Below are positions 6,108-59,046 of a DNA stretch of 64,000 bases, piece by piece. The translations under genes were made by a program, and so were the position numbers. The notes under the pieces are model-generated. The model saw nothing but the letters and a program-made list of their open reading frames with translations, searched no databases and was not told the origin of the DNA. Positions within the stretch are counted from its first letter, which is position 1, and each line of letters starts with the position of its first letter. The DNA is from Lysobacter firmicutimachus (GTDB lineage Bacteria; Pseudomonadota; Gammaproteobacteria; Xanthomonadales; Xanthomonadaceae): assembly GCF_037027445.1 (NCBI RefSeq), contig NZ_JBANDL010000002.1, positions 1,116,001 through 1,180,000 of the forward strand, written 5' to 3'.

Positions 6108-6601
6108 TCGCGCTGGCCTCGGACCTGGAACGTCCCACGGCCCCGGCCGCGCTGCGGCCGATGCGCGAAGACGACTTGGATGCGGTCCACGCGATCGAGA
6201 TCCGCGCCTACGAGTTCCCGTGGACCCCGGGCATCTTCCGCGACTGCCTGCGCGCCGACTACCCGGCTTGGGTGCTGGTCGAGGACGAGCGCATCGTCGG
6301 CTATTTCTTGATGAGCGTCGCCGCCGGCGAGGCGCACGTACTCAACGTGTGCGTCGCTCCGGAAGCGCATGGGCTGGGGTTCGGCCGCAAGCTGCTGCGC
6401 GCGCTGGTGATGATCGCCCGCGGCCGCGGCGCCGAACGGGTATTCCTGGAAGTGCGCCCGTCCAACGCCGGCGCGATCGCCCTGTACCACAGCGAAGGCT
6501 TCAACGAGATCGGCCGCCGCCCGCGCTACTACCCGGCCCGCGGCGGCCGCGAGGACGCGCTGGTGATGGCGATCGAGCTGTTGCCCGAGGGTGGGGATTA
6601 G
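6104..6601 (+). CDS. rimI: Ribosomal protein bS18 (S18)-alanine N-acetyltransferase
   Basis: Cytoplasmic GNAT-fold acetyltransferase predicted to acetylate the N-terminal alanine of ribosomal protein S18 using acetyl-CoA. Of 165 residues, 16-160 form the GNAT domain: RPMREDDLDAVHAIE at the start, the acetyl-CoA loop HGLGFG at 89-94, and the RimI-typical RPSNAGAIALYHSEGF at 118-133 with the conserved Tyr. ATG at 6104 overlaps the holD-like stop by four bases. The gene's last codons (Gly-Asp-stop) are written by a heptamer repeat tract that begins at 6594, so the native C-terminus may have been altered by the repeat. Confidence 0.92.
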   Translation: MIALASDLERPTAPAALRPMREDDLDAVHAIEIRAYEFPWTPGIFRDCLRADYPAWVLVEDERIVGYFLMSVAAGEAHVLNVCVAPEAHGLGFGRKLLRALVMIARGRGAERVFLEVRPSNAGAIALYHSEGFNEIGRRPRYYPARGGREDALVMAIELLPEGGD

Positions 6602-6677
6602 GGATTAGGGATTAGGGATTAGGGATTGGGGATTGGGGATTGGGGATTGGGGTTTGGGGATTGGGGTTTGGGGATTG
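6594..6677. repeat. Tandem heptamer tract, 12 units (G-arm only)
   Basis: Exactly twelve uninterrupted heptamers: four GGGATTA, then GGGATTG units with two GGGTTTG variants. The TAG stop of rimI (6599-6601) is inside the first two units. It is followed by GCAGGAGCGGC, a weak form of the AAAAGC core seen in other copies; no opposing NAATCCC arm follows. It belongs to the dispersed heptamer element family of this window. Confidence 0.92.
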
Positions 6678-6700
6678 GCAGGAGCGGCGACGCTGCCCCC

Positions 6701-6729
6701 TGTAGGAGCGGCGTGAGCCGCGACAACCC
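6701..6729 (+). repeat. REP-like palindromic repeat, left copy
   Basis: TGTAGGAGCGGCGTGAGCCG and following bases resemble the REP elements common in Pseudomonas and xanthomonads (TGTAGGAGCG head, GCGGC-GTGA-GCCGC stem-loop). A perfect 29-bp inverted copy lies at 6837-6865. Confidence 0.85.
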
Positions 6730-6836
6730 AAACGACGAAACACCACGCCTCCTTCGGAAGCCCCGACCCTTCCCGCTCTGCCTGCCCAAATCGCGGATAT
6801 CCGCGCTTCGGCTGCCACGCTTGCGTCCGTCGCTGC

Positions 6837-6865
6837 GGGTTGTCGCGGCTCACGCCGCTCCTACA
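6837..6865 (-). repeat. REP-like palindromic repeat, right copy
   Basis: The exact reverse complement of the repeat at 6701-6729. The two copies face each other across 107 bp of unique sequence between rimI and the valS terminator, the paired arrangement typical of REP/BIME elements. Confidence 0.85.
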
Positions 6866-6883
6866 GGAGCCACGCGCGGACGC

Positions 6884-6913
6884 AAAAAAGCCGCGGCATG
6901 ACCGCGGCTTTTT
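6884..6913. terminator. Bidirectional terminator behind valS
   Basis: AAAAAAGCCGCGG and CCGCGGCTTTTT pair around a short loop, giving a T tract on either strand. It ends valS transcription on the minus strand and could stop read-through from rimI on the plus strand. Confidence 0.85.
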
Positions 6914-6937
6914 CGCCTGTGCGACCGCAGCGGCCGC

Positions 6938-9760
6938 TCAGTCCAGCTTGGCTCGCTGCGCGACCAGCTCTTCCAGCATCGTGGTCCAGTCGATCAGGCG
7001 CTTGCGCTCCTGCTCGACCACCGCCGGCGGCGCGTTCTGGACGAAGGTCTCGCTGGCCAGTTTGCCCCGGCACTTGGCGATCTCGCCTTCGACCCGCTTC
7101 TTCTCCTTGTCCAGACGCACGCGCTCGGCGTCGAGCTTCTCCGCCGGCAGCGGCACCAGCAGGGTCAGCTCGCCGACCACCGCCGGCGCGGCCGGCGGCG
7201 CGGCGGCCACGTCGTCGACGAACTCGATCCGCTCCAGTTTGTTGAGGAACGTGAGCTGGCTGGCGAAGCGTTCGCTGCGCTCGCGGTCGCTGGCGTCGCC
7301 CTTGGCCAGCAGCAGCGGCACCAGGTCGGACGGCTTGACGTTGAGCTCGCTGCGCACCTTGCGCAGCGCCGACACCATCGCCTTGAGCCATTCCACGTCG
7401 GCCTCGGCGCGGGCGTAATCGCCGGCGAACTCGGCCGCTTGAGGGTAGGCGCGCAGCATGATCGTGCTTTCGGCCACGCCCAGCTTGAGCGCGACCTGCT
7501 GCCACAGTTCCTCGGTCACGAACGGAATCAGCGGATGCAGCAGGGACAGCAGGCGCTCGAGCACGTACAGCAGGGTGTGGCGGGTGCTGTCGGCGGCCTC
7601 GCGGTCTTCGCCCTGCAGCGCCGGCTTGGCCAGTTCGACGAACCAGTCGCAGAACGCGTTCCAGGCGAACTCGTACAGGCTCTGCGCGAGCAGGTCGAAA
7701 CGGTAGGCGGCGAAGTGCGCCTCGGCCTCGGCCGCGGCCTTGGCCAGTTGCGCCAGGATCCAGCGCTCGGCGTCGGTGCGGGGCTGCGGCGCGCCGGCGA
7801 AGCGGGCGCCGTCGGTGTTCATCAGCACGAAGCGGGTGGCGTTCCACAGCTTGTTGCAGAAGTTCTTGTAGCCCTCGGCGCGGCCGAGGTCGAACTTGAT
7901 GTCGCGGCCGTGGGTGGCGAGCGCGGCGATGGTGAAGCGCAGCGCGTCGGCGCCGAACGCCGGGATGCCTTCGGGGAATTCGCGGCGGGTGGCCTTTTCG
8001 ATCTTCTCGGCCATCTTCGGCTGCATCAGGCCGCTGGTGCGCTTGGCCAGCAGTTCGTCCAGGGTGATGCCGTCGATCAGGTCGATGGGGTCGAGCACGT
8101 TGCCCTTGGACTTGGACATCTTCTGCCCGTCCTTGTCGCGCACCAGGCCGTGGATGTACACGTCGCGGAACGGGACCTGGCCGGTGAAGTGGTCGGTCAG
8201 CATGATCATGCGCGCGACCCAGAAGAAGATGATGTCGAAGCCGGTGACCAGCACCGAGGTCGGCAGGTAGCGCTCGAAGCCGCGTGCGCCCATCGCCGCC
8301 GCGTCCGGCCAGCCCAGGGTGCTGAACGGCCACAGGCCGGAGGAGAACCAGGTCTCCAGCACGTCGTTGTCCTGGGTCAGTCGATGTTCGGCGTGTTCGC
8401 CAGAAAGAACCTGCTCGTAATCGTCCTGTGTGAGGATGCCTGCGGGAACGTCCTTTAGATACTTCTCGTACGCTTCAGCGGCAGTCCGAGCGACGTAAAT
8501 ATTGCCCTGCGCGTCGTACCAGGCCGGAATGCGATGGCCCCACCACAGCTGGCGGCTGATGCACCAGTCCTGGATGTTCTCCATCCAGTGACGGTAGGTA
8601 TTGATCCAGTTGGCCGGGACGAAGCGGACCTCGCCCTGCTCGACCAGCGCCAGGCCGCGCTTGGCCAGGCCGTCCATGCGCACGAACCACTGATCGGTGA
8701 GGTAAGGCTCGATCACCTGGCCGGTGCGGTCGCCGCGCGGCACCTGCAGCTTGTGCGGCTTGGTTTCGACCAGCAGGCCCTGCGCTTCCAGTTCGGCCAG
8801 CACGACCTTGCGCGCTTCGTAGCGGTCCAGGCCGACGAAGCGTTCCGGCGCGTTGCCGTTGACGGTCGCGTCGGGGGTGAAGATGTTGATCAACGGCAGC
8901 TCGTGGCGCTGGCCGACCGCGTAGTCGTTGAAGTCGTGCGCCGGGGTGACCTTGACCACGCCGGTGCCGAACTCGCGATCCACGTAGGCGTCGGCGATGA
9001 CCGGAATCTCGCGGCCGGTCAGCGGCAGGGTCACGGTCTTGCCGATCAGGTGTTGGTAGCGCTCGTCGTCCGGATGGACCATGACCGCGGTGTCGCCGAG
9101 CATGGTTTCCGGGCGCGTGGTCGCCACGGTCAGGGTCGCGCTGCCGTCGCTGAGCGGGTAGCTGATTGACCACAGGAAGCCGTCTTCTTCCTCGTTGACC
9201 ACTTCCAGGTCGGAGATCGCGGTCTTCAGCACCGGGTCCCAGTTGACCAGGCGTTGGCCGCGGTAGATCAGGCCCTGCTCGTGCATGCGCACGAAGGCCT
9301 CGATCACCGCCTGCGTGGCCATCGGGTCCATGGTGAAGGTCGAGCGGGTCCAGTCGCCGGAGGCGCCGAGGCGGCGCATCTGCCGTTCGATGGTGCCGCC
9401 CGAATGCGCTTTCCACTCCCACACCTTCTCGATGAAGCCGTCGCGGCCCAGGCCGTCGCGGGTCAGGCCTTCCTGGCCCAGGTTGCGCGCCACCACCATC
9501 TCGGTGGCGATGCCGGCGTGGTCGGTGCCCATCTGCCACAGCGTGTCGTAGCCGCGCATGCGGTGATAGCGGATCAGCGCGTCCTGCAGGGTGTGCTGGA
9601 ACGCGTGGCCCATGTGCAGGGTGCCGGTGACGTTCGGCGGCGGCAGCAGGATCGAATACGTCGGGCCTTCGCCGCGCGGCTGGAATACGCCGCTGCTTTC
9701 CCACTGTTCGTAGAGGCGGGCTTCGAACTGTTTGGGGTCGTAGCTGGAGGCGAGGGACAT
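6938..9760 (-). CDS. valS: Valyl-tRNA synthetase
   Basis: Cytoplasmic class I aminoacyl-tRNA synthetase that charges tRNA-Val and edits Thr-tRNA-Val. The 940 residues fit the family. The HIGH motif is HMGH at 49-52 within [15 protein letters not shown]; the CP1 editing domain spans about 190-350 ([14 protein letters not shown]); KMSKSKGN lies near residue 545; the anticodon-binding domain follows; and residues 870-940 form the Val-specific C-terminal coiled coil ([21 protein letters not shown]). It is the last gene of pepA-holC-valS, the order known from many gammaproteobacteria, and is separated from holC by a heptamer repeat tract. Confidence 0.98.
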
Positions 9761-9767
9761 AGGGGCG

Positions 9768-9833
9768 GAGATTCGGGATTGGGAATTCGGGATTGGGTAC
9801 AGCGGGGATTCGGGATTGGAGATTCGGGATTCG
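9768..9833. repeat. Heptamer element between holC and valS (G-arm)
   Basis: About eight imperfect heptamers of the types GGGATTC, GGGATTG and GAGATTC, interrupted once by GTACAGC. It starts 7 bp upstream of the valS start codon, so on the valS transcript it reads as GAATCCC repeats directly in the leader. GCGAAAACCGAAGC just beyond resembles the AAAAGC core. Confidence 0.85.
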
Positions 9834-9871
9834 TTAGGACAATGGCGAAAACCGAAGCGTGGGGCCGCCCC

Positions 9872-10297
9872 TCACATATCGTGCTTGTTCAACGCCAGCC
9901 CGCGCGCCTGGTATTGCTTCCAGCGCTCGCGCAGCGGACCGCGCGCGGAGTCGTCGGCGGGAACCACTTCGAGCACGCGGTCGAAGCCGTCGGCGACCGC
10001 GGCGTCGCGCAGGTTGATCACCAGCGGGCGCAGCGCGGCGTCGGACTCGGGCGCGGCGATCAGCACGTCGGCTTCTTCCTCGTCCTCGTCCAGGCCGGCG
10101 ATCTGGTGCGGGATGTAGGCGTCCTCGCCCATGTCCCAGAGCATGTCGTCGAGTTGCTCGGCCTGCTCGGCGCTGCGCGCCAGGATCAGGGTCGGCAGCC
10201 CGGCGTCGTGGGCCTTGCGCGCCAGCTCGCAGACCAAGCGCATCGGCTCCTCGCGGAAGCGCGGCGATTGGATCAGGTAGAAGTCGGCACGGGGCAT
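9872..10297 (-). CDS. holC: DNA polymerase III chi subunit
   Basis: Chi subunit of the replicative clamp loader, which binds single-stranded DNA binding protein and pairs with psi. The 141 residues match the family in length and in features: an N-terminal ADFYLI strand, ARKAHDAGLPTLILARSAEQAEQLDDMLW around residues 26-54 and the conserved SDAALRPLVINL near 84-96. An acidic run (DEDEEEAD) lies in the middle. It sits between pepA and valS as in E. coli, but heptamer repeats fill both junctions. Its likely partner is the HolD-like protein at 5757-6107. Confidence 0.93.
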   Translation of the reverse strand: MPRADFYLIQSPRFREEPMRLVCELARKAHDAGLPTLILARSAEQAEQLDDMLWDMGEDAYIPHQIAGLDEDEEEADVLIAAPESDAALRPLVINLRDAAVADGFDRVLEVVPADDSARGPLRERWKQYQARGLALNKHDM

Positions 10298-10306
10298 CGG
10301 GAAGCC

Positions 10307-10424
10307 GGGATTGGGGATTCGGGATTGGGGATTGGTTGGGGCAAAAGCCGAGGCGGAGCCGGTGGGGATTCGATGGCGGCGTCAGGAGCCGTCATCGAAT
10401 CCCGAATCCCGAACCTCAAATCCC
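10307..10424. repeat. Complete heptamer element between pepA and holC
   Basis: A full copy: left arm of GGGATTG/GGGATTC heptamers (10307-10337), then GGCAAAAGCC, a core of about 55 bp, and a right arm of GAATCCC heptamers (10396-10424). Its ends form an inverted repeat, GCCGGGATT at left and AATCCCGGC at right. The stop codon of pepA (10416-10418, TGA on the minus strand) falls inside the right arm, and the left arm ends 10 bp upstream of holC. Confidence 0.9.
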
Positions 10425-11888
10425 GGCCTGATCGAGCAACCACTGCGACAGCAGCCCCACCGGGCGGCCGGTGGCCAGGCCGCGCTTGCCTTCTTCGTTG
10501 GAGACGCCGGCGATGTCCAAATGGGCCCAGCGCTGGCCTTCGGTGAAGCGGGCCAGGAAGCAGCCGGCGGTGATCGCGCCGGCCCAGCGGCCGCCGATGT
10601 TGTAGACGTCGGCGAAGCTGGATTCGAGCTGGGTCTGGTACTCGTCCCACAGCGGCAGGCGCCAGGCGCGGTCGAAGACCTGCTCGCCGGCCTGCAGCAG
10701 TTCGCCGGCGAGGTCGTCGTCCTTGCTCATCAGGCCGCTGGCGAACTTGCCCAGCGCGACCACGCAGGCGCCGGTCAGGGTGGCCACGTCGAGCAGGGCC
10801 TTGGGTTCGAAGCGCTGGGCATAGGTCAGCGCGTCGCACAGGATCAGGCGGCCTTCGGCGTCGGTGTTGCCGACCTCGATGGTCTTGCCGGACATGCTGG
10901 TGAGCACGTCGGACGGACGGTAGGCGTCGGCGTCGGGCATGTTCTCCACCGCCGGCACCACCACCACCAGGTTGATCGGCAGCTGCATGCCGACCGCCGA
11001 GACGAACGTGCCCAGCACCGAGGCGGCGCCGCACATGTCGAACTTCATCTCCTCAATGCCGCCCTGGACCTTGAGGTTGATGCCGCCGGTGTCGAAGGTG
11101 ATGCCCTTGCCGACCAGCACGTAGGGCTTGGCGTCGCCGCCGTTGTCGTACTTGAGCACGATCAGCTTGGGCGGATTGGCCGAGCCGCGCGCGACGGCGA
11201 GCAGCGAGCCCATGCCCAGCGCCTGCATCTGCTCGCGATCGAGCACTTCGCAGGAGGCCTTGTCGAAGCGGCCGGCGAATTCCTGCGCCTGCTGCGCCAG
11301 GTAGGCCGGGTTGCAGATGTTCGGCGGCAGGTTGCCGAGCTCGCGCGCGAACGCGACGCCGGCGGCGATGGCCTGGCCCTGCGCCAGCGCGACCGTGTCG
11401 GTGCCGCTGAGCGAGAGCTGGCGCAGGCCGGGTTCGTCCTTCTTCTTGCCCAGGGTGGCGGTGTAGCGATAGCAGGCGTGGTCGGCGGCGATCGCGGCCT
11501 GGCGGATCGCCCAGGCCGCGTCGCGGCCCTGCACCGGCTCTTCGGACAGGGTCAGCAGGGCGTGCTGGACCGGGCCGGCCTTGAGCGCGCGGGCGGCGTC
11601 GCCGACCGCCTTCAGGTACTGGGCGACGCCGAACTTGCCCGGCTCGCCGAGGCCGACCACCAGAACGCGCGGCGCGGTCACGCCGGGGACGTCGTGCAAC
11701 AGAGCGGTCTTGCCGGTCTTGCCGCTGATGTCGCCGCGTTCCAGCAGCACGGTCAGGCGGCCGCCGCTGATTTCATCCAGCGTTCGCGCGGCAGCGGTCA
11801 GGGTCTTGTCGGCGAAGGCGCCTACCACGACGCAATCGGTTTGAGCGGCCGCGGGCGTGTCGCGGTTCAGGTCGAATTCGAGGGCCAT
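10416..11888 (-). CDS. pepA: Leucyl aminopeptidase (M17 family)
   Basis: Cytosolic two-metal M17 aminopeptidase that trims N-terminal residues from peptides; in E. coli PepA also binds DNA as an accessory factor for Xer recombination. The 490-residue chain has the variable N-terminal domain (1-170) and the catalytic domain with the M17 metal motifs [11 protein letters not shown] and the signature [13 protein letters not shown] at 11888 is chosen because family similarity begins at MALEFDLN; the 24 extra codons upstream look non-coding. The last residues Gly-Ile-stop are encoded by the heptamer element, so the extreme C-terminus may be element-derived. Divergent from lptF. Confidence 0.96.
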
Positions 11889-14303: not shown

Positions 14304-14926
14304 GCCAAGCCCGCTTAGGCGGCACTGCCGCCTGGGCTTGGCGAACGCCCGGCGCGCTGCGCCGGGCCGGGGCCGTACCCTCCAGTTCACGCATAGCCGC
14401 CCGAAGCCGCGTGCGGCACTGCTGCCTGGGCTTGGCGAACGCCCGGCGCGCTGCGCCGGGCCGGGGCCGTAACCCTCCAGCTCATGCATAGCCGCCCGAA
14501 GCCGCGTGCGGCACTGCCCCTGGGCTTGGCGAACGCCCGGCGCGCTGCGCCGGGCCGGGGCCGTACCCTCCAGTTCATGCATAGCCGCCCGAAGCCGCGT
14601 GCGGCACTGCCGCCCGGGCTGGTCGAACGCCCGGCGCGCTGCGCCTGGCCGGGGCCGTACCCTCCAGTTCACGCATAGCCGCCCGAAGCCGCGTGCGGCA
14701 CTGCCGCCCGGGCTGGTCGAACGCCCGGCGCGCTGCGCCTGGCCGGGGCCGTACCCTCCAGTTCACGCATAGCCGCCCGAAGCCGCGTGCGGCACTGCTG
14801 CCTGGGCTTGGCGAACGCCCGGCGCGCTGCGCCGGGCCGGGGCCGTAACCCTCCAGCTCATGCATAGCCGCCCGAAGCCGCGTGCGGCACTGCCGCCTGG
14901 GCTGGTCGAACGCCCGCGGTCCCTAC
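14304..14926. repeat. Tandem array A, about 94-bp hairpin units, 6.7 copies
   Basis: Units begin with GCATAGCC at 14391, 14486, 14579, 14673, 14767 and 14862, so the period is 93-95 bp; a divergent first unit starts right at the lptG stop. Each unit carries GAAGCCGCGTGCGGCAC, then GCCTGGGCTTGG or a variant, then the hairpin GCCCGGCGC...GCGCCGGGC, and ends CCGTACCCTCCAG. In the first unit GCCAAGCCC and GGGCTTGGC form an outer stem around AGGCGGC/GCCGCCT; later units lack the left arm. A related array lies behind xerD. Confidence 0.9.
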
Positions 14927-14938
14927 GCCCCCTCGCAA

Positions 14939-16477: not shown

Positions 16478-16752
16478 GGATCAGCGCTCAGGCGGCACGG
16501 CCGCCTGCTGATCCGAACGCCCGGCGCCCCTGCGCCGGGCCGGGCGCATCGGATCAGGTCGCGAGTACCCCCAACGAAGCCGCGTGCGGCACGGCCGCCT
16601 GCTGATCCGAACGCCCGGCGCCCCTGCGCCGGGCCGGGCGCGCCGGGTCAGGTCGCGAGTACCCCAACGAAGCCGCGTGCGGCACGGCCGCCTGCTGATC
16701 CGAACGCCCGGCGCTCCTGCGCCGGGCCGGGCGCGCCGGGTCAGGTCGCCAG
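16478..16752. repeat. Tandem array B, about 93-bp hairpin units, 3 copies
   Basis: Three units follow the xerD stop; GAAGCCGCGTGCGGCAC recurs at 16576 and 16669. The core CGAACGCCCGGCGC...GCGCCGGGCCGGG is shared with array A, but the outer segment is CTGATCC instead of GGGCTTGG and the tail is GGTCAGGTCGCGAGTACC. As in array A, only the first unit has a left arm (GGATCAG) that pairs with CTGATCC around CAGGCGGC/GCCGCCTG. In each unit CTGATCC can also pair with a following GGATCAG or GGGTCAG. No gene lies between here and dsbC (16753-17037). Confidence 0.88.
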
Positions 16753-17037
16753 TACCTCCGCGTCACGGCGGGCGTCGAGCGGGCTTGCCCCCCTCCCTCC
16801 CTGGCTTCCGTCCGCCGGTCCTTGTCCCCCGCACATCGGCGCATTCACCCCGGCGGCCCCGGGCCGGCGCACACTCCACGCGACGGGCGGCCCGCGCCGC
16901 AAACCGCGACCGGCATCGCCACTCGCGCGGCGATCCGGTCGCGGTACCGCGATCGCGGCGCCGCCCGTGCCACAATCGGCAGAACCTATTCCCCGTCGGG
17001 CGGTCCAAGCCCGACCTCTGAACCAAGGATTCGATGG

Positions 17038-18140: not shown

Positions 18141-21100
18141 ATGATCGTCCTCGAGGGCCCTTCGGCCCTGTCTTCGTTCCGCCGCGATCGGCTTCAAGCC
18201 CGCCTGCAAGTCATCCACCCCGATGTGCGTCTGCTCGATGCCTGGCCCGTGTATTGGGTCGAGCCCGAGGCCGGCGCCGCGCCCGACGATGCGACCCTGC
18301 GCCGCATCCTGCAGGCGCAGCCTGAGGCCGCCGCGCGCGCCGACGGCGCGGTCTCGCGCTACGTCACCCCGCGCCTGGGCACCTTGTCGCCCTGGGCCAG
18401 CAAGGCCACCGAGCTGCTGCGCGGCGCCGGGCAGCCGGTCAAGCGGGTCGAACGCGGCACCCGCTACGACCTCCTGGGCTGGCCGGCCGATGCCGCCACC
18501 CAGGGGGCGCTGGCCAAGGCCCTGCACGATCCGATGACCCAGTCGCTGCTGGACGCACGCGACGATGCCGCGGCGCTGTTCGCGGTGCCGGCGCGCGGCG
18601 AACTGGAACGCATCCCGCTGGATCGGCTGGAGGCCGCCAACGCCCGCCTCGGCCTGGCCCTGGCCGACGACGAAATCGCCTACCTGCGCGAGCGTTACGC
18701 CGCGCTCGGCCGCGAGCCGGCCGACGTCGAACTGATGATGTTCGCTCAGGCCAATTCCGAGCACTGCCGGCACAAGATCTTCAACGCCTCCTGGACCGTC
18801 GACGGCCGCGAACAACCGCTGTCGCTGTTCAAGATGATCAAGCACACCCATGCGCAAACGCCGGAGAACACTCTGTCGGCGTACAGCGACAACGCGGCGG
18901 TGGTCGAGGGCTATGCCGCGCGCCGGTTCCGGCCGCAGCCGGGCAGCCAGGCCTACGCGGCCGAGGCGGAAATCCCTTCGGCGTTCTGCATCAAGGTCGA
19001 AACCCACAATCATCCGACTGCGATCGCGCCGTTCCCCGGCGCCAGCACCGGCAACGGCGGCGAGATCCGCGACGAAGGCGCGACCGGCCGCGGCGGCCGG
19101 CCCAAGGCCGGCCTGTGCGGTTTCAGCGTCTCGCACCTGCGCATCCCGACCCTGCCGCAGCCCTGGGAAAGCCCGCGCGCGCTCAATCCGCGCATGGCCC
19201 CGGCGCTGGAAATCATGCTCGACGGCCCGATCGGCGCGGCCGCGTTCAACAACGAATTCGGCCGGCCGAACCTGACCGGCTACTTCCGCAGCTTCGAACT
19301 GGGCCAGGGCGAGATCGCCCGCGCCTACGACAAGCCGATCATGCTCGCCGGCGGTCTCGGCGCGATCGACCGGGTCCAGGTGGCCAAGCTCGGCCTCAGG
19401 CCGGGCCATGCGGTCATCGTGCTCGGCGGCCCGTCGATGCTGATCGGCCTCGGCGGCGGCGCGGCCAGCTCGGTCGCCTCCGGCGACAGCGCGGAGGAAC
19501 TGGATTTCGCCAGCGTCCAGCGCGACAACCCGGAAATGGAGCGTCGCTGCCAGGAGGTGATCGACCGCTGCGTCGCGCTGGGCGAGGCCAACCCGATCGA
19601 CAGCGCTCACGACGTCGGCGCCGGCGGTCTGTCCAACGCCATTCCCGAACTGCTGCACGACTCCGGCCTGGGCGGCGTGATCGACCTGGCCAAGGTGCCC
19701 AGCGACGACCCCTCGTTGTCGCCGATGCAGCTGTGGTGCAACGAATCGCAGGAGCGTTACGTGCTCGGCCTGCCGGCCGATCGCGTGGCCGACTTCGCCG
19801 CGATCTGCGAGCGCGAGCGTTGCCCGTTCGCGGTGGTCGGCTACGCCACCGCCGAAGAGCGGCTGGTGGTCGGCTACGGCGCTACCGTCGAGTCGGTGTA
19901 CGGCGACGGTGCCGAGCCCGCGGCGGACTGGCCGATCGATCTGCCGATGGACGTGCTCTTCGGCAAGCCGCCGAAGATGCACCGCGACACCCGCCATCCG
20001 GCCGCAGCGCCGTGGCCGGCGCTGGACTGGGACGGGCTGGACCTGCACCAGGCCGGCTTGCGCGTGCTCGCGCACCCGACCGTGGCGGCGAAGAACTTCC
20101 TGGTCACCATCGGCGATCGCACCGTCGGCGGCCTGGTCGCGCGCGACCAGATGATCGGCCCCTGGCAGCTGCCGCTGGCCGACTGCGCGATCACCCTGAG
20201 CGGTTTCGACGGCTTTGTGGGCGAAGCGATGGCGCTCGGCGAGCGCACTCCGCTGGCCCTGCTCGATGCGGCCGCGGCGGCGCGCATGGCGGTCGGCGAA
20301 GCGATCACCAACCTGTGCGCGGCGCCGGTGGAATCGCTGAACCGGATCAAGCTGTCGGCGAACTGGATGGCCGCGGCCTCGCATCCGGGCGAAGACGCGT
20401 TGCTGTTCGACGCGGTCAAGGCGGTCGGCCTGGAGCTGTGCCCGGAGCTCGAGTTGAGCATCCCGGTCGGCAAGGATTCGCTGTCGATGCAGGCGCAATG
20501 GAGCGACGGGATTCGGGATTCGGGATTGGGGATTGGCAAGAGCGATTCCCCGGCGACCGATGCCGAATCCCGAATCTCCAATCCCCAATCCCATAAGTCG
20601 GTCTCGCCGGTGTCGCTGATCGTCAGCGCGTTCGCGCCGGTGGTCGACGTGCGCCAGCAGCTGACTCCGCTGCTGTCGCGCGAGGCCGAGACCGAGCTGT
20701 GGCTGATCGGCCTGGGCGCGGGCAAGCAGCGCCTCGGCGGCTCGGTGCTGGCCCAGGTGCATCCGGAGGCCGGCGCGGCCGACGGACTGCCCGCGTTCGC
20801 CGGCCTGCCCGGCGAGGGCGCGCGCTTCGACACCGGCGTGCCGGACCTCGACAGCCCGCAGCGCCTGCGCGATTTCTTCGAGCTGATCCGCGACGCGCGC
20901 GAGGCCGGCCTGCTGCTGGCTTACCACGACCGCAGCGACGGCGGCGCCTTCGCGACCCTGGCCGAAATGGCGTTCTGCTCGCGCCTGGGCCTGGACATCA
21001 GCCTCGACGGCTGGGGCGAAGACCCGTTCCGCACTCTGTTCAACGAAGAGCTGGGCGCGATCGTGCAGATCCACGACGAGGACCGCGCCGAGTTCGCCGA

Positions 21101-25531: not shown

Positions 25532-25644
25532 GGGATTGGGGATTGGGGATTCGCAAAGCGGATCCACCCGACTCGATCGTCTTCGACCCCTCCCGCTTTT
25601 ACTGATCCCTAATCCCTAATCCCTAATCCCTAATCTCCAATCCC
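25532..25644. repeat. Complete heptamer element between gspE and gspF
   Basis: Left arm of three GGGATTG/C heptamers (25532-25552), a core of about 50 bp ending in CGCTTTTACTG (AAAAGCG on the other strand), and a right arm of five CTAATCC-type heptamers plus CAATCCC (25603-25644). It ends in AATCCCGGCCT, eight bases before the gspF start codon. Confidence 0.92.
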
Positions 25645-36032: not shown

Positions 36033-36927
36033 GCCCGATCCGTCCGTCCGCCCCGAAACCGCCTCGGGGGTCGGATTGGGCGCGGTCGTGGTCAGCTACC
36101 GCAGCGCCGCGACCATCGACGAGTGCCTGACCCGGCTGCGCAACGGTCGCGGCGTCGGCGCGATCCGTGTGGTCGACAACCAGTCCGACGACGGCACCCT
36201 GGAGATCGTCCAGCGCCACGCCTCGCTGGACCCGCGCGTGCGTTTCATCGCCAACCCCGACAATCCCGGCTTCTCGGTCGGTTGCAATCAGGGCGTGGCC
36301 GAGCTGGAACCGCCGCCGCCGGGGAGCCACTGCGGCTGGGTGGCGTTCGTCAATCCCGACTGCATGGTCGAGCCGGACACCTTGCAGCGCCTGCACGCCG
36401 CCGCGGCCTCGCTCGGCGAGGCCCTGGTCAGCGCTGACCTGGTCAGCGAAGACGGCGAGCGCGATGCCGCGGTGCGCCGGCGCGATCCCGATTTCGGTGC
36501 GATGCTCGGCGGCCTGCTGCGCCCGTGGGCGGCGCCCAAGCTGGCGATCGCGCCCGACGACACGGCGGTACTGCAGCGGGTCGAGGCGACCTCGGGCGCC
36601 TTGATGCTGATGCCGCGCCGGCTGTTCGAGCGCATTGGCGGCTTCGACGAAGGGTATCGCCTGCACGCCGAGGACCTGGACCTGTGCCGGCGGGTGCGCC
36701 AGGCCGGCGCCGAGGTCGCGGTCGCCAACGGCGTGCGCGTGGTGCACGTGCGCGGCGTGTCCAGCCGTTCGCGGCCGTTCTTCGTCGAATGGCACAAGCA
36801 CCGCGGGCTGTGGCGCTACTTCTGCAAGTTCGAGGCGCCGCGGCGCGGCGCGGCGATGCGCGCCGGGGTGTTCGCGGCGATCTGGCTGCGCTTCCCGATC
36901 GCGGCCTTGCGCGCCTGGTTGCGCTGA
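36016..36927 (+). CDS. Family 2 glycosyltransferase, rhamnosyltransferase-like
   Basis: Predicted inverting glycosyltransferase of the RfbF/WbbL type that adds a sugar, often rhamnose, to a lipid-linked or protein acceptor at the inner-membrane surface. Visible landmarks in the 303 residues: GAVVVSYRSAATID (about 15-28), VVDNQSDDGTLEIV, NPGFSVGCNQGVAEL, the donor/metal loop FVNPDCMVEPDTL, and the catalytic-base block GGFDEGYRLHAEDLDLCRRVRQAGAEV. A GTG start inside the previous gene is the only initiator before the domain. The actual sugar and acceptor are unknown. Confidence 0.82.
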   Translation: MIFSSEPDPSVRPETASGVGLGAVVVSYRSAATIDECLTRLRNGRGVGAIRVVDNQSDDGTLEIVQRHASLDPRVRFIANPDNPGFSVGCNQGVAELEPPPPGSHCGWVAFVNPDCMVEPDTLQRLHAAAASLGEALVSADLVSEDGERDAAVRRRDPDFGAMLGGLLRPWAAPKLAIAPDDTAVLQRVEATSGALMLMPRRLFERIGGFDEGYRLHAEDLDLCRRVRQAGAEVAVANGVRVVHVRGVSSRSRPFFVEWHKHRGLWRYFCKFEAPRRGAAMRAGVFAAIWLRFPIAALRAWLR

Positions 36928-38825: not shown

Positions 38826-38867
38826 CCGGCTTTTCCGAATCCCGAATCCCGAATCCCCATCCCGGCC
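38826..38867. repeat. Heptamer element between map and pyrF (C-arm only)
   Basis: CGGCTTTTCC (the AAAAGC core on the other strand) is followed by GAATCCC heptamers and ends ATCCCGGCCTTC, one base before the map stop codon. No left arm is present. The terminal AATCCCGGCCT wording matches the right ends of the copies before gspF, nrdR and holC. Confidence 0.85.
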
Positions 38868-44327: not shown

Positions 44328-44453
44328 GCCGGGATTCGGGAGTAGGGATTCGGGGATGGAGAGCGCATTCGCGGCGGCTTGGCACTATGCTGGCATCCGC
44401 CGCAAGCGCTTTTGACTTTCCGAATCCCGATTCCCGAATCCCAAATCCCGGCT
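44328..44453. repeat. Complete heptamer element between glyA and nrdR
   Basis: Ends are GCCGGGATTC at left and AATCCCGGC at right, an inverted repeat. The left arm has imperfect GGGATTC units to about 44358, the core is about 60 bp and includes CGCAAGCGCTTTTGAC (AAAAGCG on the other strand), and the right arm has three to four GAATCCC-type heptamers. It ends five bases before the nrdR start codon. Confidence 0.9.
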
Positions 44454-47107: not shown

Positions 47108-47275
47108 GGCCAGCGGCCGGCGCGGCCGCCCGGAGGCCGCACCGGGGCGGCCCGCGACCGGTCCGGCCGCGCCGCGGCGGAACGCTGCATCGCGGCCGCG
47201 GCGGTGGGCCGGCTCCGGACGCTCGGGCGGCCGGTGCTAAACTGCGCGCGCCGGTTCGCCGGCACCCACAGGTAA

Positions 47276-47437
47276 CGTCTTCAGGGCGGGGCGGAACTCC
47301 CCACCGGCGGTAGGCGCGGCGACGCGCGAGCCCGCGAGCGCTGCCCGGCCGCGCGTCCCAGGACGTCCCGGCCGGGCGGGTCAGCAGATCCGGTCCGATG
47401 CCGGAGCCGACGGTCACAGTCCGGATGAAAGAAGACG
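47276..47437 (+). promoter_or_regulatory. FMN riboswitch (RFN element)
   Basis: CGTCTTCAGGGCGGGGCGGA at the 5' end and GATGAAAGAAGACG at the 3' end form the closing P1 helix, and the invariant segments CCCCACCGGCGGTA, the GCAGATCCGGT-type block and CACAGTCCGGATGAAAGA are all present. A long variable P-stem (about 47310-47375) is GC-rich. It precedes riboflavin synthase by 173 bp; a GCCTTGAGGC stem and TTTTT at 47523-47527 in that leader could be the terminator half of the switch. Confidence 0.95.
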
Positions 47438-47610
47438 GCTACGCGCGACGCCCGCCGCAAGGACGGGCGCCCGAGGCTGCGGCCGCGCCGCGGCCCGTGC
47501 GTTGTCTTCGAGCCTTGAGGCGTTTTTCGCTCAACATCACGCGGGAAACGTTTCATGACCCAGTTCGTTCGCAACACCTGCCCGGCGGCCGCCCGCCAGG
47601 AGGCCGGCTG

Positions 47611-53508: not shown

Positions 53509-53919
53509 TCAGGCGTCGTCGGCGCGGAACGCGTCGCGCAGCCAGCGCAGTTGCGGCTCGGCCGGGTCGCCTTGGGCTTCGATCACGTCGAAACGGCAGG
53601 CGTGCTCGGCGTAGCCGGGGTGGGCGAGCAGGAACGACTGCGCCGCCAGCAGTAGTTTGCGCCGCTTGCGCAGGTCGACCGAGGCCGCGCCGCCGCCGTA
53701 GCGGGCGTCGCGGCGGTAGCGCACTTCGACGAACACCAGCACGGCGCCGTCGAGCATCACCGCATCGAGTTCGCCGCAGCGGTAATGGGCGTTCGCGGCG
53801 ACTTCGCGCAGTCCGGCGCCGAGCAGATGACGGCGCGCGGCGGCTTCGATCGCGGCGCCGCGGGCGCGCCGTGAGGGCGCACCCGTGGAGCGGGCGTTGC
53901 CGTCAGCGGCGCGAGGCAT
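53509..53919 (-). CDS. yraN: YraN family (UPF0102) putative nuclease
   Basis: A 136-residue protein of the YraN family, whose fold is that of Holliday-junction-type endonucleases; function unproven. [51 protein letters not shown] contains the family's E...GELDxV...FVEVR active-site pattern. It overlaps the end of lpoA by 17 bases. The order lpoA-yraN with divergent rsmI is the same as in E. coli (yraM-yraN, yraL). Confidence 0.93.
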
Positions 53920-55294
53920 CCGCCAGCGGCACTGCGACGCCGCTGCTGAAGGTCGACCAGGCCGGCGTGCGCAGCACGCTGCCGAAGCCGTCGACCCGCA
54001 GCACGCCGGTGGCGCCGGCGACGAAGGCGTCGGAGCGGCTGGCCAGGCGTTCCAGATAGGCCGACAGCAGCCACGCGTCGTAGCCGAATGCGAACAGGCG
54101 CGCGGCCGGACCGCGCGCGGTCGGCAGACCGGCCGCGACGCCCGGCGCCGGCGGCAGGCCGCGCACGCCGCCGCTGGTCCAGGATTCGGAGGGGAAGGCG
54201 ATGCCGTCGAGCACCCGGTCCTGCTCCGGCTTGCCGGTGCCGGACAACAGCTGCGAGGTCGCCACGCGCGGCTTCTCGGCCAGGCCGGCGAGGGCGAGCT
54301 TGGGAATCAGCCCGCGCGCCGCGCTGCCCTTGACCGCCAGGAACACCGCGTCGATGCCGCCATCCTTGCTCGCGAACGGCGCCAGGTCCGCGGTGCCTTC
54401 GCCGATCGTGTCGGTGACCTGGGCACCGCGCGCGCTCAAGCGCTCCTTGAGCGCGGCGATGGCGCGGCGCTGGCTGTCGTCGCCGCCGCCGATGGCGAGC
54501 ACGCGCGCGGCCTTGCGTTCGAGCAGGTAGTCGGCCGCGGCCACGCCTTCGTCCTCGGGCGTCAGCGAGAAGCTCACCGTGCCGCTGGGCGGGGCGACGT
54601 TGCCGCGGTTGAGCGCCAGCACCGGCACCGGCAGTGCGTTCTTGCCGAACAGGGCGCTGACCTCGTCGCGGCCGAGCGGCCCGACCACGAAGTCGTTGCC
54701 CTCGGCGGCGGCCTTGTCGTAGGCGGCGAGGGTGCCGCCGGCGGTGCCGTTGGTGTCGTAGAAGACGATTTCCGGGCGCCGCCGGGTTTCGCCGTAATAG
54801 CCGGCGAGCAGGCCATCGCGCACCGGCGCGGCGGCAGTGGCGAGCGAACCCGACAGCGGCAGCAGCACCGCCAGCTTGAGCGGCGGACGGTAGCCGTCGC
54901 TGTCGGCCGGCGGGCGCTGGGCCGAGGCCTGGTAGCGCCAGTTCGAGGTCTGGTCGAACGGCCGCGGCAGCGGCAGGCCGCGCTGCATCAGCTGGCGGCC
55001 GACGAAGTTGTACAGCGGGTCGCCGACCGGCAGGGCATCGGCTTCGCGCGTCAGCGCCGCATTGTCGAGCTGCGCCAGCAGGCGTTCGATCTGGCGTTCG
55101 TTCTCGGCACGCTCGGCGCCGCTGAGGTTGGCGTTGTTGTGCGCCAGATGCCCGGCCTGGGCGATCAGCGGATTGGAGGCGCTGACCGCGGCGGCGGGGC
55201 GGGTTTCGACCGTGGCGCAGCCGCCGAGCACGGCGGTGGCGGCCAGCAGGCTGAACATCCATGTCATCGCGGGCCGGTTCTTGCTCTGATTCAT
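53903..55294 (-). CDS. lpoA: Penicillin-binding protein activator LpoA
   Basis: Outer-membrane lipoprotein expected to activate peptidoglycan synthase PBP1A from outside the sacculus. The 463-residue precursor has a lipobox LGGC (Cys 26), a short N-terminal helical region (about 40-95) and a periplasmic-binding-protein-like domain ([30 protein letters not shown], about 140 onward). It is much shorter than E. coli LpoA (678 residues) because the N-terminal TPR-like domain is reduced. ATG at 55294 begins the signal peptide. Confidence 0.9.
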
Positions 55295-55369
55295 CGGCTT
55301 GCTTCCGCCGTCCAGCGGCGTTCCTGTGGGACCGGTTAGGATTCTACCCGGCCTCACCGCACCCGTACG

Positions 55370-56200
55370 ATGCTCACTTCCGGCACCCTTCATATTGTCG
55401 CCACCCCGATCGGCAACCTCGGCGACCTGACGCCCCGCGCGCTGGAGACCCTGCGCTCGGTCGCGGCGATCTGTGCCGAGGATACTCGCCACACCCGCCA
55501 GCTGCTGGCCCATTTCGGCCTGGAGCGGCCCCTGTTGGCCCTGCATCAGCACAACGAGGACCAACAGGCGGCGCAGCTGGTGGCACGGCTGCAGGGCGGC
55601 GATTCGCTGGCCCTGGTGTCCGACGCCGGCACCCCGCTGGTCAGCGATCCGGGCTTCCGCCTGGTCCGCGCCGCCCGCGCGGCCGGCATCCGGGTGTCGC
55701 CGGTGCCCGGCGCCTGCGCCGCGATCGCGGCCCTGAGCGTGGCCGGGCTGGCCTCAGACCGGTTCAGTTTCGAGGGTTTCCTGCCGGCCAAGGCGTCGGC
55801 CCGGCGCGAGCGCCTGGCGCGGTTGGCGGCCGAGCCGCAGACCCTGCTGTTCTACGAATCGGCGCACCGGATCGAGGAAACCCTGGCCGACATGGTCGGC
55901 GCGTTCGGCGAACAGCGCCCGGCGGTGCTGGCGCGCGAGTTGACCAAGCTGTTCGAGACCGTGCTCGACGGCAGCCTCGGCGAACTCGCGCAGAAGGTCG
56001 CCGCCGACCCCAACCAGCGCAAGGGCGAGTTCGTGCTGATCGTCGAAGGCGCCGGCGACGACGCCGACGCCAAGGTGGTCGAGGGCCGGCGCATCTACGC
56101 CAAGCTCAGCGAGCACCTGCCGCCGTCGACCGCGGCCAAGCTGGCCGCCGAGCTGAGCGGGGCGCCGCGCAAGGCGCTGTACGGGCGCGGCGAGGAGTAG
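55370..56200 (+). CDS. rsmI: 16S rRNA 2'-O-methyltransferase RsmI
   Basis: Methylates the ribose of C1402 in the 16S rRNA decoding centre. The 276 residues show the tetrapyrrole-methylase fold: LHIVATPIGNLGDLTPRALETL (about 7-28), AEDTRHTRQLLAHFG, LVSDAGTPLVSDPGFRLV, and FLPAKASARRERL and FYESAHRIEETL in the second half. Together with RsmH in this window, which methylates the base of the same nucleotide, it completes the C1402 modification pair. Divergent from lpoA across 75 bp. Confidence 0.96.
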   Translation: MLTSGTLHIVATPIGNLGDLTPRALETLRSVAAICAEDTRHTRQLLAHFGLERPLLALHQHNEDQQAAQLVARLQGGDSLALVSDAGTPLVSDPGFRLVRAARAAGIRVSPVPGACAAIAALSVAGLASDRFSFEGFLPAKASARRERLARLAAEPQTLLFYESAHRIEETLADMVGAFGEQRPAVLARELTKLFETVLDGSLGELAQKVAADPNQRKGEFVLIVEGAGDDADAKVVEGRRIYAKLSEHLPPSTAAKLAAELSGAPRKALYGRGEE

Positions 56201-56321
56201 ACGATGCTCATGAGCGCGACGCCGGAGCCGGCGCATCCGGCCCAGCGCGTGCCTGTGTGCGGCTGAGGCGGAGATGAAGCGTGCCGGCGCGCGAGCGGGT
56301 CGGGCGTGCGACAATGCGCCC

Positions 56322-56682
<361 letters not shown>

Positions 56683-56683
56683 C

Positions 56684-56890
56684 TTTTTCAGGCTGCGCCT
56701 GAAAAACCCAAAGTTTGCTTTGCAAACTTTGGGCCCCGCTTCGTTCCCCCCAATCCCCGCCCCTTCGGGGTGGCGTTTTTCGGGCTTCGCCCTACAAACC
56801 CCAAAATTTGCTGCGCAAATTTCGGGCCCCGCTATGTGTCTCCAAATCCCCGCCCCTTCGGGGCGCCCCCCTTTACTAAAGGGGGCTCTC
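56684..56890. repeat. Cluster of hairpins with a 93-bp duplication behind rnpB
   Basis: Successive stem-loops: TTTTTCAGGC/GCCTGAAAAA (56684-56706), CCCAAAGTTTGC/GCAAACTTTGGG (56707-56733), CCCCGCCCCTTCGGGG (56755-56770), AAATTTGC/GCAAATTT (56804-56822), CCCCGCCCCTTCGGGG again (56848-56863) and CCCCCTTTA/AAGGGGG (about 56866-56885). The second and third are repeated as the fourth and fifth at a spacing of about 93 bp with base changes in both arms, so the stems are kept while the sequence drifts. The block reads into the spacer towards mraZ. Confidence 0.75.
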
Positions 56891-56923
56891 GGTTGCGGAA
56901 GAGTGTCGCTGCTTGTTGCCTTG

Positions 56924-56963
56924 CCCGAGTCCCGAGTCCCGAGTCCCGAGTCCCGAGTCCCGA
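56924..56963. repeat. Heptamer tract, CCCGAGT units
   Basis: Five to six tandem CCCGAGT heptamers in perfect register. The unit length and the CCCGA wording recall the GAATCCC arms of the dispersed heptamer element, with AGT in place of AAT. It lacks the other parts of that element. Confidence 0.85.
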
Positions 56964-56976
56964 AGCTGGGCTTGTC

Positions 56977-57014
56977 TCCCTCTCCCGCTTGCGGGAGAGG
57001 GGCGGGGTGAGGGC
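56977..57014. repeat. CTCTCCCGC/GCGGGAGAG stem-loop repeat
   Basis: CTCTCCCGCTTGCGGGAGAG forms a near-perfect hairpin, followed by GGGCGGGGTGAGGGC. This wording is a dispersed intergenic repeat in many GC-rich proteobacteria. It sits between the heptamer tract and the mraZ control region. Confidence 0.75.
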
Positions 57015-57222
57015 CGGCGGACTCGGCGGGAACGGCGGCCCGCCGGCGGGCGTCCCCTCCAGTCCGGGTGTCCCAGCGCGGCAGCTCCTGGCCGCCTGTG
57101 CGCCCGCGGATGTTCCGATAGCTGCCGCCGATCAGGGATCGAACTTCGACCTTTTGCGTCTATCGAGCCGGATTGCTGCTGCGCAACAAGGCCTTAACAA
57201 CTGTGACGGACATCGCGCGAGG

Positions 57223-57259
57223 GTCACTTTGTGACGTTCAGAGTCTCAAAACCTGAGAC
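57223..57259. promoter_or_regulatory. Two inverted repeats upstream of the dcw promoter
   Basis: GTCAC-TTT-GTGAC (57223-57235) and GTCTCA-AAACC-TGAGAC (57243-57259) lie 92-128 bp before the -35 box, in the most AT-rich stretch of the spacer. Each has the form of a dimeric regulator site; neither is followed by a T tract. The cognate protein is unknown. Confidence 0.4.
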
Positions 57260-57350
57260 GAAACAAAGGTTAGTGGATAACTCTTGAATAAGACTCTGAA
57301 GTTCGCTGCAAGCCATTGATGCGACAGGTGAAATTTGTCCCGGAAAGTTG

Positions 57351-57378
57351 TTGACAACCCTGTGCACCCTGCTAATGT
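57351..57378 (+). promoter_or_regulatory. Promoter of the mraZ (dcw) cluster
   Basis: A perfect -35 box TTGACA (57351-57356) and TAATGT (57373-57378) are separated by 16 bases. The predicted start site falls within the MraZ operator immediately downstream, about 105 bp before the mraZ ATG. Confidence 0.8.
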
Positions 57379-57412
57379 GGACATCCGAGGGAAATCCTGG
57401 GTTTTAGTGGGA
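57378..57412 (+). promoter_or_regulatory. MraZ operator (10-bp-spaced TGGG repeats)
   Basis: TGGA (57378), AGGG (57388), TGGG (57398) and TGGG (57408) recur at exactly 10-bp intervals. MraZ of other bacteria binds short direct repeats of TGGGN separated by five bases in its own promoter region. The position over and just past the -10 box suits autorepression. Confidence 0.72.
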
Positions 57413-57490
57413 TTTCGAGGCCAACCGCTCAGCCGGGCGGATGAACTGAGGTGACCCGTCCGGTAGAGACGGGAGCCGCAAAGGTGCGCA

Positions 57491-57937
57491 ATGTTCCAAG
57501 GCGAAACCGCCATCACGATCGACGACAAGGGCCGGCTGGCGGTGCCCACCGCCTACCGTGATCTCGTCGCGCGCGAGTGCGGCAACCGCCTGGTCATCAC
57601 CTACAACCCGTTCGAGTCCGGCTCCCTCTATCTGTATCCGCTGTCGATCTGGGAACGCGTCCGCGACCAGGTCAACAAGCTGCCCAAGGTCAAGCAGGTC
57701 AACCGCAACATGCAGCTCAAGCTGGTCGGAGCGGCGGCCTTCGTCGAACTCGACAGCAACGGCCGCATCACCGTGCCCCCGAGCCACCGTTCCGCGGTCG
57801 GCATCGACAAGAAAGCCGTGTTGCTGGGCATGGGCGACAAATTCGAGCTGTGGAGCGAGCAAGCGCATCACGCCCAGATCCGTCAGACGATTACCGACGA
57901 CGATCTGAGCGACGAGCTGCTCGATTTGCAGCTATGA
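57491..57937 (+). CDS. mraZ: Transcriptional regulator MraZ
   Basis: First gene of the division/cell-wall cluster; DNA-binding repressor of its own operon. The 148 residues form two SpoVT-AbrB-like halves, each with the family motif ([17 protein letters not shown] at 8-24 and [17 protein letters not shown] near 87-103). Length is typical. The operator described at 57378-57412 is its likely target. Its stop overlaps an in-frame ATG of rsmH. Confidence 0.97.
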
Positions 57938-57948
57938 CGGGGGGTGGC

Positions 57949-59046
57949 ATGGAACGCACGCACGCGCGGTCCGGCCACCTTCCCGTGATGTATCGGCAGG
58001 TGCTCGAAGGCCTGCGGGTGCACGGGAACGGAGCCTATCTCGACGGGACGTTCGGCCGCGGCGGGCATGCCCGCGGCGTGCTCGACCAATTGGACGCCGG
58101 AGGCCGGCTGCTGGTGATGGACAAGGACCCGGAAGCGATCGCCGTGGCCGAACGCGAGTTCGGCGGCGATGCGCGCGTGTCCATCTATCGCGGCAGCTTC
58201 GCCGAGCTGGGTCGCTGGGACGCGACCGCCGCCGGCCTCGACGGCGTGCTGTTCGACCTGGGCGTGTCCTCGCCGCAGCTCGACGTCGCCGAGCGCGGCT
58301 TCAGCTTCGGCAAGGACGGCCCGCTGGACATGCGCATGGACCCCGACAGCGGCCAGAGCGCGGCGCAGTGGCTGGCGACCGCGGCCGAGAAAGAGATCGC
58401 CGACGTGCTGTGGACCTACGGCGAAGAGCGCCAGAGCCGCAAGATCGCCCGCGCCATCGTCGCCCGCCGCGACGCCCAGCCGCTGCTGCGCACCGCGCAA
58501 CTGGCCGACCTGATCGCCTCGGTGATGCCGCGCGGCGACCAGAAGATCCACCCGGCCACGCGCAGCTTCCAGGCGATCCGCATCTTCATCAATCGCGAAC
58601 TGGCCGATCTGGAAACCGGGCTCGACGCCGCGCTGGCGCGGCTCAAGCCGGGCGGCCGGCTGGCGGTGATCAGCTTCCACTCGTTGGAAGACCGCATCGT
58701 CAAGCAGTTCATCGCCCGCCATTCCAAGGCGCCGCCGGCCAACCGCCGGATGCCGGTGGAGCTGGCGTTCACCCCGACCCTGCTCGCCATCGATGGCGCG
58801 CAGAAGGCCGACGAGGCCGAGACCGCGGCCAACCCGCGCGCGCGCAGCGCGGTGTTGCGGGTGGCCGAGAAGCTGGGATTCGGGATTCGAGATTCGGGAT
58901 TGGCTGAGCCGGGATCGGAGATTCGGGGTTCGGGATTGGGTAAGGCGAAGGCCGCGCCCGGCGCCGACTTCAGCGCATCGCCGCTCGTACGAATCCCCAA
59001 TCCCCAATCCCCAATCCCCGCGTCTCCGCCAGGAGGCGCGCCATGA
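57949..59046 (+). CDS. rsmH: 16S rRNA N4-cytosine methyltransferase RsmH with element-encoded tail
   Basis: Methylates N4 of C1402 in 16S rRNA. Residues 1-308 are a normal Rsm[29 protein letters not shown] (SAM site), [12 protein letters not shown], and the [13 protein letters not shown] segment, ending at [11 protein letters not shown] where the E. coli protein also ends (313 residues). Here a heptamer element starting at 58875 removes the stop and adds about 57 residues (GIRDSGL ..., IPNPQSPIP ...) up to the overlap with ftsL. ATG 57949 has a G-run before it; ATG 57934, overlapping mraZ, would add five residues. Confidence 0.95.
58875..59020. repeat. Complete heptamer element in the 3' end of rsmH
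   Basis: A long copy: left arm of GGGATTC, GAGATTC and GGGATTG units with an interruption (58875-58950), then TAAGGCGAAGGCCGC, a core of about 40 bp and four GAATCCCC/CAATCCCC units (58991-59020). The element is translated as the RsmH tail. It ends 23 bp before the ftsL start, and AGGAGGCGCGCC for ftsL lies just beyond it. Confidence 0.92.

Follow-up and report, generated by a model that had tools for sequence, protein, structure and literature searches.

The 64-kb stretch of the Lysobacter firmicutimachus genome analysed here (the window, G000:C2:1116001-1180000; genome G000, 5.32 Mb) contains, in and between its protein genes, short elements built from tandem heptamers, with GGGATTN units in the left arm and NAATCCC units in the right arm. 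One larger member of the same build lies elsewhere in this genome and encloses a gene of family PF05635, the family of the 23S ribosomal RNA (rRNA) intervening-sequence protein (IVP, or S23-type), a four-helix-bundle protein related to Avd. Based on the arms, their pairing and the alleles found in related genomes, we propose, with a probability of roughly 0.6, that the window copies are the short, non-coding kind within a family of inverted-repeat elements, the full members of which carry the IVP gene, and that they spread with IVP acting in trans. The link between IVP genes and heptamer arms across bacteria is what this analysis adds; similar heptads with convergent pairs have already been published for Xanthomonas.

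Heptamer elements in the window and the genome

All eight places listed in the original prediction hold GGGATTN or NAATCCC arrays (Table 1), far above the chance level given below. The arm-core-arm plan ascribed to them applies to five, E3, E4, E5, E7 and E8, and not to E1, E6 or E2, the last with its direct left arms; the core lengths of the full copies do not keep to the 25-60 bp first given. The inverted ends said to close the full copies are also shared only in part, with GCCGGGATT present at E3 and E7 and AATCCCGGC at E3, E5 and E7, together with one more occurrence of the latter at 36262, outside any array. Most copies do sit in operon junctions, E5, E6 and E7 at most 7 bp from where gspE, map and glyA end, respectively, the exceptions being E4 and E8, which lie inside reading frames. 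NCBIfam supports the gene names pepA, holC, valS, gspE, glyA, map and pyrF, and gspF and nrdR are named from translations only. A ninth array, of a different heptamer, had been missed. An Rfam scan of the window gave no match at any heptamer element, the only matches being an FMN riboswitch and an RNase P RNA.

Table 1. Heptamer elements of the window, followed by its other mapped features (window positions)
Feature	Position	Strand	Description
E1	6594..6677	+	single 12-unit GGGATTN array; overlaps end of rimI-type reading frame; valS converges from opposite side
E2	9768..9833	+	two left arms in direct orientation (9768-9794, 9805-9831) without a right arm; holC/valS junction, ahead of valS
E3	10307..10424	.	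full, 4+4 units, core 64 bp; pepA/holC junction; right-hand arm contains pepA stop codon
E4	20508..20592	.	full, core 31 bp; in frame within purL
E5	25532..25644	.	full, core 59 bp; gspE/gspF junction
E6	38826..38867	-	right arm alone; map/pyrF junction
E7	44328..44453	.	full, GCC/GGC ends, core 72 bp; glyA/nrdR junction
E8	58875..59020	.	full, core 90 bp; C-terminal tail of rsmH reading frame
Ninth array	56924..56963	-	perfect GGGACTC heptamer, 5.7 copies; ~240 bp past RNase P RNA gene
FMN riboswitch	47273-47440		Rfam
RNase P RNA, class A	56324-56683		Rfam
Tandem repeat, 93-94 bp	14319-14916		6.4 copies
Tandem repeat, 93-94 bp	16492-16756		2.8 copies
Tandem repeat, 93-94 bp	56684-56863		1.9 copies; directly past RNase P RNA gene

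The heptamer arrays of this genome are genuine and genome-wide. Exact three-unit GGGATTN matches number 374 (206 + 168), as against 7 (3 + 4) for the pattern read backwards. A sample of 81 blocks (the window and 80 sampled stretches, 1,645,402 bp) contains 93 arrays with two or more exact units, as against nine in the reversed sequence; four units is the commonest arm span (37 of the 93), and a motif-blind scan of the same sample returned 40 arrays of period 7, with 13, 2 and 1 of periods 6, 8 and 5, respectively. Neighbouring arrays less than 400 bp apart are convergent in 26 cases, divergent in one and in the same direction in six. In 23 of 93 arrays, the three bases immediately outside read GCC; inside the array edge, the second base past GGGATT is G in 98%, and AARGC occurs within 16 nt inward in 28 of 93, as against 2.1% of random 16-mers. 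RNA folding of both strands of 21 elements with cores of up to 130 bp gave a mean z of -5.3, with 95% of the 42 values below -2. The paired arrangement predicted for the whole genome is present and a fixed core is not, 325 core pairs yielding five hits, each of 11-13 nt, with the cores otherwise unrelated. Copying from arm to arm left no sign at the seventh base, where 20 of 60 paired units are equal (null mean 0.364, sd 0.058). The 272-bp core of one pair (L099:9884-10195) holds a repeat that gives 97 additional hits across the sample and is therefore a case of a second repeat family inside a heptamer-armed pair.

IVP genes between inverted arms

What the original prediction overlooked is the coding member of the family, and the equivalent role of other heptamers elsewhere. 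The single PF05635 gene of G000 is enclosed by a convergent pair at G000:C2:4363713-4364156 (L095:8713-9156), between accB and accC; of the convergent pairs in the sample, this is one of only three whose cores measure 240-400 bp. The protein matches TIGR02436 (four helix bundle protein), and its solved relative is XCC0516 (2GSC, E 2.3e-37). It has no hit to the Avd model NF033474, which the IVPs of Nostoc (E 1.4e-6) and X. arboricola (0.0019) match below the curated cut-off. We know of no function for IVP/S23 four-helix-bundle proteins. IVP is under purifying selection: across 91 pairs from 14 genomes dN/dS has a median of 0.19 and a maximum of 0.39, and in the five closest pairs it is 0.02-0.13, dS having a median of 1.1 with many pairs near saturation. 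L133 and its relatives often have GTGATT as third heptamer in the left arm of the IVP element, and a GTG start for the IVP frame may thus come from the arm. In several genomes with an IVP element after accB (L322 and others), a perfect or near-perfect hairpin surrounds the stop codon of accB, and it differs from species to species by paired changes (GTAATCGGC/GCCGATTAC and GTGATCGGC/GCCGATCAC).

PF05635 matches occur in 33 of 60 relatives and in 52 of 299 genomes drawn from the phylum. The arm score was the best ungapped inverted match that the stretches on either side of the PF05635 match make with each other; the controls were shifted windows of the same loci (114, none from cyanobacterial plasmids, and 138), which reached 16 at most. 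Three of 70 loci in the first set and seven of 80 in the second were left out for short flanks, leaving 67 and 73. Scores above 16 were reached by 24 of 29 Xanthomonadales loci, 8 of 10 on cyanobacterial plasmids (10 of 24 hit records), 19 of 28 from the wider Pseudomonadota (among 30 loci listed) and 50 of 73 from named genomes (the best 80 of at least 590). In total, flanking inverted repeats score above every shifted control at 101 of 140 IVP genes (51 of 67 and 50 of 73). Loci from named genomes that exceed 16, within these best 80 of at least 590, include Bacteroidota, Planctomycetota, Acidobacteria, Chloroflexi, Clostridia and candidate-phylum bacteria.

When the 135 loci of plain geometry were run again, 98 scored above 16. 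Their best period is 7 in 92, 8 in three, 9 in two and 10 in one, and the 92 period-7 loci display 60 distinct heptamers; G outnumbers C in the left arm of 94 of the 98, and the unit contains GGG in 39. The 150 IVP loci are all different places (no two share more than 54% of 25-mers), yet many are kin. In X. arboricola and X. dyei, the IVP genes lie between GGGAATC arms. On the cyanobacterial plasmids L147, L148 and L149, IVP genes have cas6 and cas4, or cas10 and a cmr3-family gene, as their neighbours on either side; L148 fails the inverted test, its flanking heptamers all pointing the same way. A Nostoc edaphicum plasmid (L372:36462-36848) carries a second IVP gene whose arms, which were unscored, resemble an 8-base unit.

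IVP arms often agree with the dispersed heptamers of the same genome, the agreement being partial. We counted exact triples on both strands of 23 genomes, IVP arms included. GGCAGTA triples occur in G228 (42), G113 (30), G129 (18), G330 (5) and G348 (1), with zero in 18 genomes; the first four have GGCAGTA-armed IVP genes, and subtracting those arms leaves 34, 19, 9 and 4 triples, respectively. GGGACCN triples number 405 in G047, 70 in G009, 49 in G056 and 1 in G129, with zero in 19 genomes and 138, 3 and 11 in the first three when the pattern is read backwards; the IVP arms are GGGACCN in G047 and G009, and GGGAGCA in G056. For GGGAATN, the counts are 480 in G001, 326 in G016, 259 in G006, 209 in G033 and at most 29 in six others, and this heptamer arms the IVP genes of G001 and G016 and the accB/accC IVP gene of G006, the arms in G033 being GGGATTN. 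GTGAGTR triples were found in G051 (78, backward control 30), G041 (59), G330 (3) and G113 (1), with IVP arms of the same type in G051 and GTGACGC arms at the IVP gene examined in G041. G101 has GTGAGTA arms and zero exact triples, and G019 has GGGAATN arms, yet 398 GGGATTN versus 19 GGGAATN matches. Among the 60 relatives, PF05635 is present in 15 of 17 with at least 20 GGGATTN matches versus 18 of the 43 others (Fisher p 0.0013, with a cut-off picked after the counts were seen and kinship uncorrected).

Alleles in related genomes

The coding element and the short copies meet as alleles of one junction. In 20 genomes of the genus, the accB/accC junction carries an IVP element in 11, a 4+4 unit GGGACTC element with no open reading frame in G008, and other short repeat stretches in G004, G009 and G018; it is empty (11-13 bp) in five of the 20, G002, G010, G012, G013 and G015. 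Related species also hold differing elements at one place. At glyA/nrdR (E7), a GGGATTN element is found in G000, G014 and G354, the last a genome of the same species as G000, a GGGACTN element in G008, GAGTGA-type elements in G017, G007 and G005, and an IVP gene in G018 and G006, a different gene preceding nrdR in 11 others; in G005 (L217), at least two whole GAGTGA-type heptamer elements stand in tandem with the end of a third. With carA/carB, IVP genes thus lie between arms at three differing junctions.

The remaining window places show a similar variety. The pepA/holC junction (E3) has GGGATTN arms in G000 and G354, GGGAATN arms in six genomes and no element in G010, G012, G013 and G015, other genomes being unclear or having another neighbour; in G008, a GCCGGGAAT...ATTCCCGGC element has a single GGGATT unit left next to it, towards pepA. 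Elements with GGGATTN or GGGAATN arms occupy holC/valS (E2) in other species. E4 is an insertion inside a gene: of four other species, three (G014, G007 and G006) are empty at this site in purL, with 18-21 bp instead, and G008 has a GGGACTN version. At E5, G008 has a GGGAATN version, and G007 and G006 have a 0.9-kb stretch without an element; at E6, G008 has a GGGAATN right arm at the same place. The cores of E7 in G000 and G014 are related (z 20.7), as are those of E8 in G000 and G008 (z 4.8), where the arms are GGGATTN and GGGAATN, respectively; comparison of G000 with G008 revealed no relation between cores at E2, E3, E5 and E7 and a borderline result at E4 (p 0.028).

Eight of 11 comparable arrays or elements are identical in the two genomes of the species. 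As the original prediction anticipated, arm length changes by repeat turnover, E1 having 12 units in G000 and 5 in G354; another array has most of its seventh bases changed with an equal number of units, and a third has one point change. The proposal of a mobile element gains from convergent pairing (26:1) and from the empty sites; its other expectations, a fixed core and a target duplication, did not materialise, and comparison with the empty relatives, which are different species, revealed no target duplication at E4 or accB/accC.

Could these elements instead be immobile hairpins, selected for RNA processing, stabilising or termination at gene ends, with IVP as an RNA-binding regulator that acts through them? 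The strength of the predicted hairpins, the gene-end places of E1, E3, E5, E6 and E7, and the low dN/dS of IVP would suit such a role. We nevertheless consider it unlikely, given the in-frame insertion within purL that is empty in three species, the several differing elements at one junction within one genus, and the position of IVP itself between arms at accB/accC, carA/carB and glyA/nrdR.

Relation to known systems and a model

An IVP gene enclosed by two arms of about four tandem heptamers each, the left arm G-rich and the right one C-rich, has the plan of the intervening sequences (IVSs) of some 23S rRNA genes, placed here outside rRNA. According to PMC4990558, the IVS of Coxiella has two or three tandem heptamers ahead of the S23p open reading frame and a 28-bp terminal stem cut by RNase III, and older ideas regard IVSs as transposition remnants or mobile elements. 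Like the IVSs of Coxiella and Leptospira, the accB/accC element has a PF05635 gene between inverted terminal repeats, and the folding z values and the arm scores of IVP loci point to inverted repeats that form a long stem. Unlike IVSs, the window copies lie in or between protein genes, and the IVP/S23p frame belongs to the accB/accC element outside the window, with none in the short copies that make up most of those in G000. We read the elements as an IVS-like family with coding and short non-coding forms and without a transposase or reverse transcriptase, the reverse transcriptase family PF00078 having no match in G000 and no search for transposases or RAYT (PF01797) having been made. IVP is related to Avd of diversity-generating retroelements, as stated in PMC10053308 and in line with the weak NF033474 matches of the Nostoc and X. 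arboricola proteins. In contrast to those retroelements, PF00078 has no match in G000 or in 10 of 17 heptamer-rich genomes, and the data at present do not support a resident reverse transcriptase as a requirement.

The heptamers themselves, for which the original prediction had found no named family, have a published relative in the GGGNATC heptads of Xanthomonas. Rehm et al. (2015, PMC4692102) describe these as mostly intergenic, near gene ends and commonest in four units, with 70 and 75 convergent pairs in two Xanthomonas genomes and 83% of repeats at the same place in a relative species. GGGATTN falls under GGGANTN and shares the four-unit arms and the convergent pairs; the unit differs, and the present data show the same plan with heptamers lacking a G tract. 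The words 'S23' and 'intervening' are absent from the text of PMC4692102, and among the open-licence PMC papers listed, judged by title or the start of the abstract, none ties IVP/S23 genes to heptamer arrays. In Rehm et al., the Xanthomonas and Nostoc heptads are discussed as G-quadruplexes, which could be kept for the regulation of transcription or translation, leaving pairing and IVP as side issues. The G3 tracts of the G000 units and the prevalence of four-unit arms agree with this, as do the circular dichroism spectra of (GGGAATC)3GGG in K+ and the Xanthomonas transcripts that begin or end at repeats, both reported there. The account fits GGG heptamers only, however, and GGG occurs in the unit of just 39 of 98 IVP-framing arrays, leaving G-quadruplexes unsupported as a general rule; convergent pairing is no requirement of quadruplex formation, and Rehm et al. 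did not succeed in identifying a gene-regulatory role. We hold this explanation to be improbable.

A classic miniature inverted-repeat transposable element (MITE) with a fixed core is ruled out by the core comparison. Terminal inverted arms, GCC outside 23 of 93 arrays, short non-coding copies, empty sites and a mostly intergenic dispersal do recall an ordinary MITE or repetitive extragenic palindromic element moved by an unrelated transposase (e.g., RAYT), with IVP as a captured passenger; this we also give little credence, as the arms are tandem heptamers of changing sequence, no common core or target duplication is seen, and capture would be needed with many heptamers. Heptamer arrays that are intergenic and patchy across phyla have also been described for TAACTGA in Beggiatoaceae, cyanobacteria and Bacteroidetes, for which 'no mechanism is evident' (MacGregor 2015, PMC4679880); unlike the elements described here, these are reported there as direct repeats.

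Several observations weigh against an IVP-carrying family that spreads in trans. Thirty-nine of 140 IVP loci do not exceed the controls, and those controls, as shifted windows of the same loci, are unmatched for intergenic position. Halves taken from different IVP loci score a mean of 15.4 with a 95% point of 26.5 (150 pairs), because the heptamers resemble each other, and hence the arm score shows that arms exist and is no proof of one origin for both. None of the 150 IVP loci has any of seven typed 23S motifs, so that the tie to rRNA IVSs is drawn from the protein family and one paper. Arms and dispersed heptamers disagree in G019, in G056 and at the IVP gene examined in G041; G008 and G030 have GGGATTN arrays and no PF05635 hit; and on two Nostoc plasmids, scanned over 200 kb, none of the six period-7 arrays matches the plasmids' own IVP arms. 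The cores share no common sequence. Within the species, none of the 11 comparable arrays or elements is absent from either genome, and no movement was seen.

With these reservations, we propose the following model for the spread of IVP-associated heptamer elements. Copies would insert, in many cases where a gene ends, and IVP would act in trans as a putative nucleic-acid-binding factor beside host replication or repair enzymes that carry out the DNA steps. In the transcript, the arms may pair into a stem of about 28 bp, a length that RNase III could cut, and such cutting would make insertions in operons tolerable, by analogy with 23S IVSs. A heptamer variant may spread through an array by slippage or conversion and so change the arm sequence; period and complementarity would thereby persist while the letters change. 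We speculate, more tentatively and with considerable doubt, that Avd-like IVPs and pairing arms of almost any period-7 heptamer form a widespread mobile class without transposase or reverse transcriptase, in which short copies spread in trans and one heptamer is exchanged for another concertedly, on the two arms and across many loci of a genome, perhaps through IVP-guided repeat synthesis; rRNA IVSs, the heptads of Xanthomonas and Nostoc, and IVP genes that have been scored as CRISPR-associated would then be one thing. Concerted rewriting is suggested because the E8 core is related in G000 and G008 while the arms are GGGATT in one and GGGAAT in the other.

What is the relevance of a tie between heptamers and IVP? 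IVP genes counted in operons may merely sit there, as between cas6 and cas4 or cas10 and the cmr3-family gene on cyanobacterial plasmids, which suggests caution; the same caution is suggested for a figure of CRISPR associations in which IVP genes appear (PMC10910872). Bacterial heptamer repeats have previously been reported without a cause (PMC4692102, PMC4679880). The tie gives heptamers and IVP a common context and renders the question testable: IVP would belong, as its conserved gene, to a heptamer-armed element and would not be a ribosomal protein.

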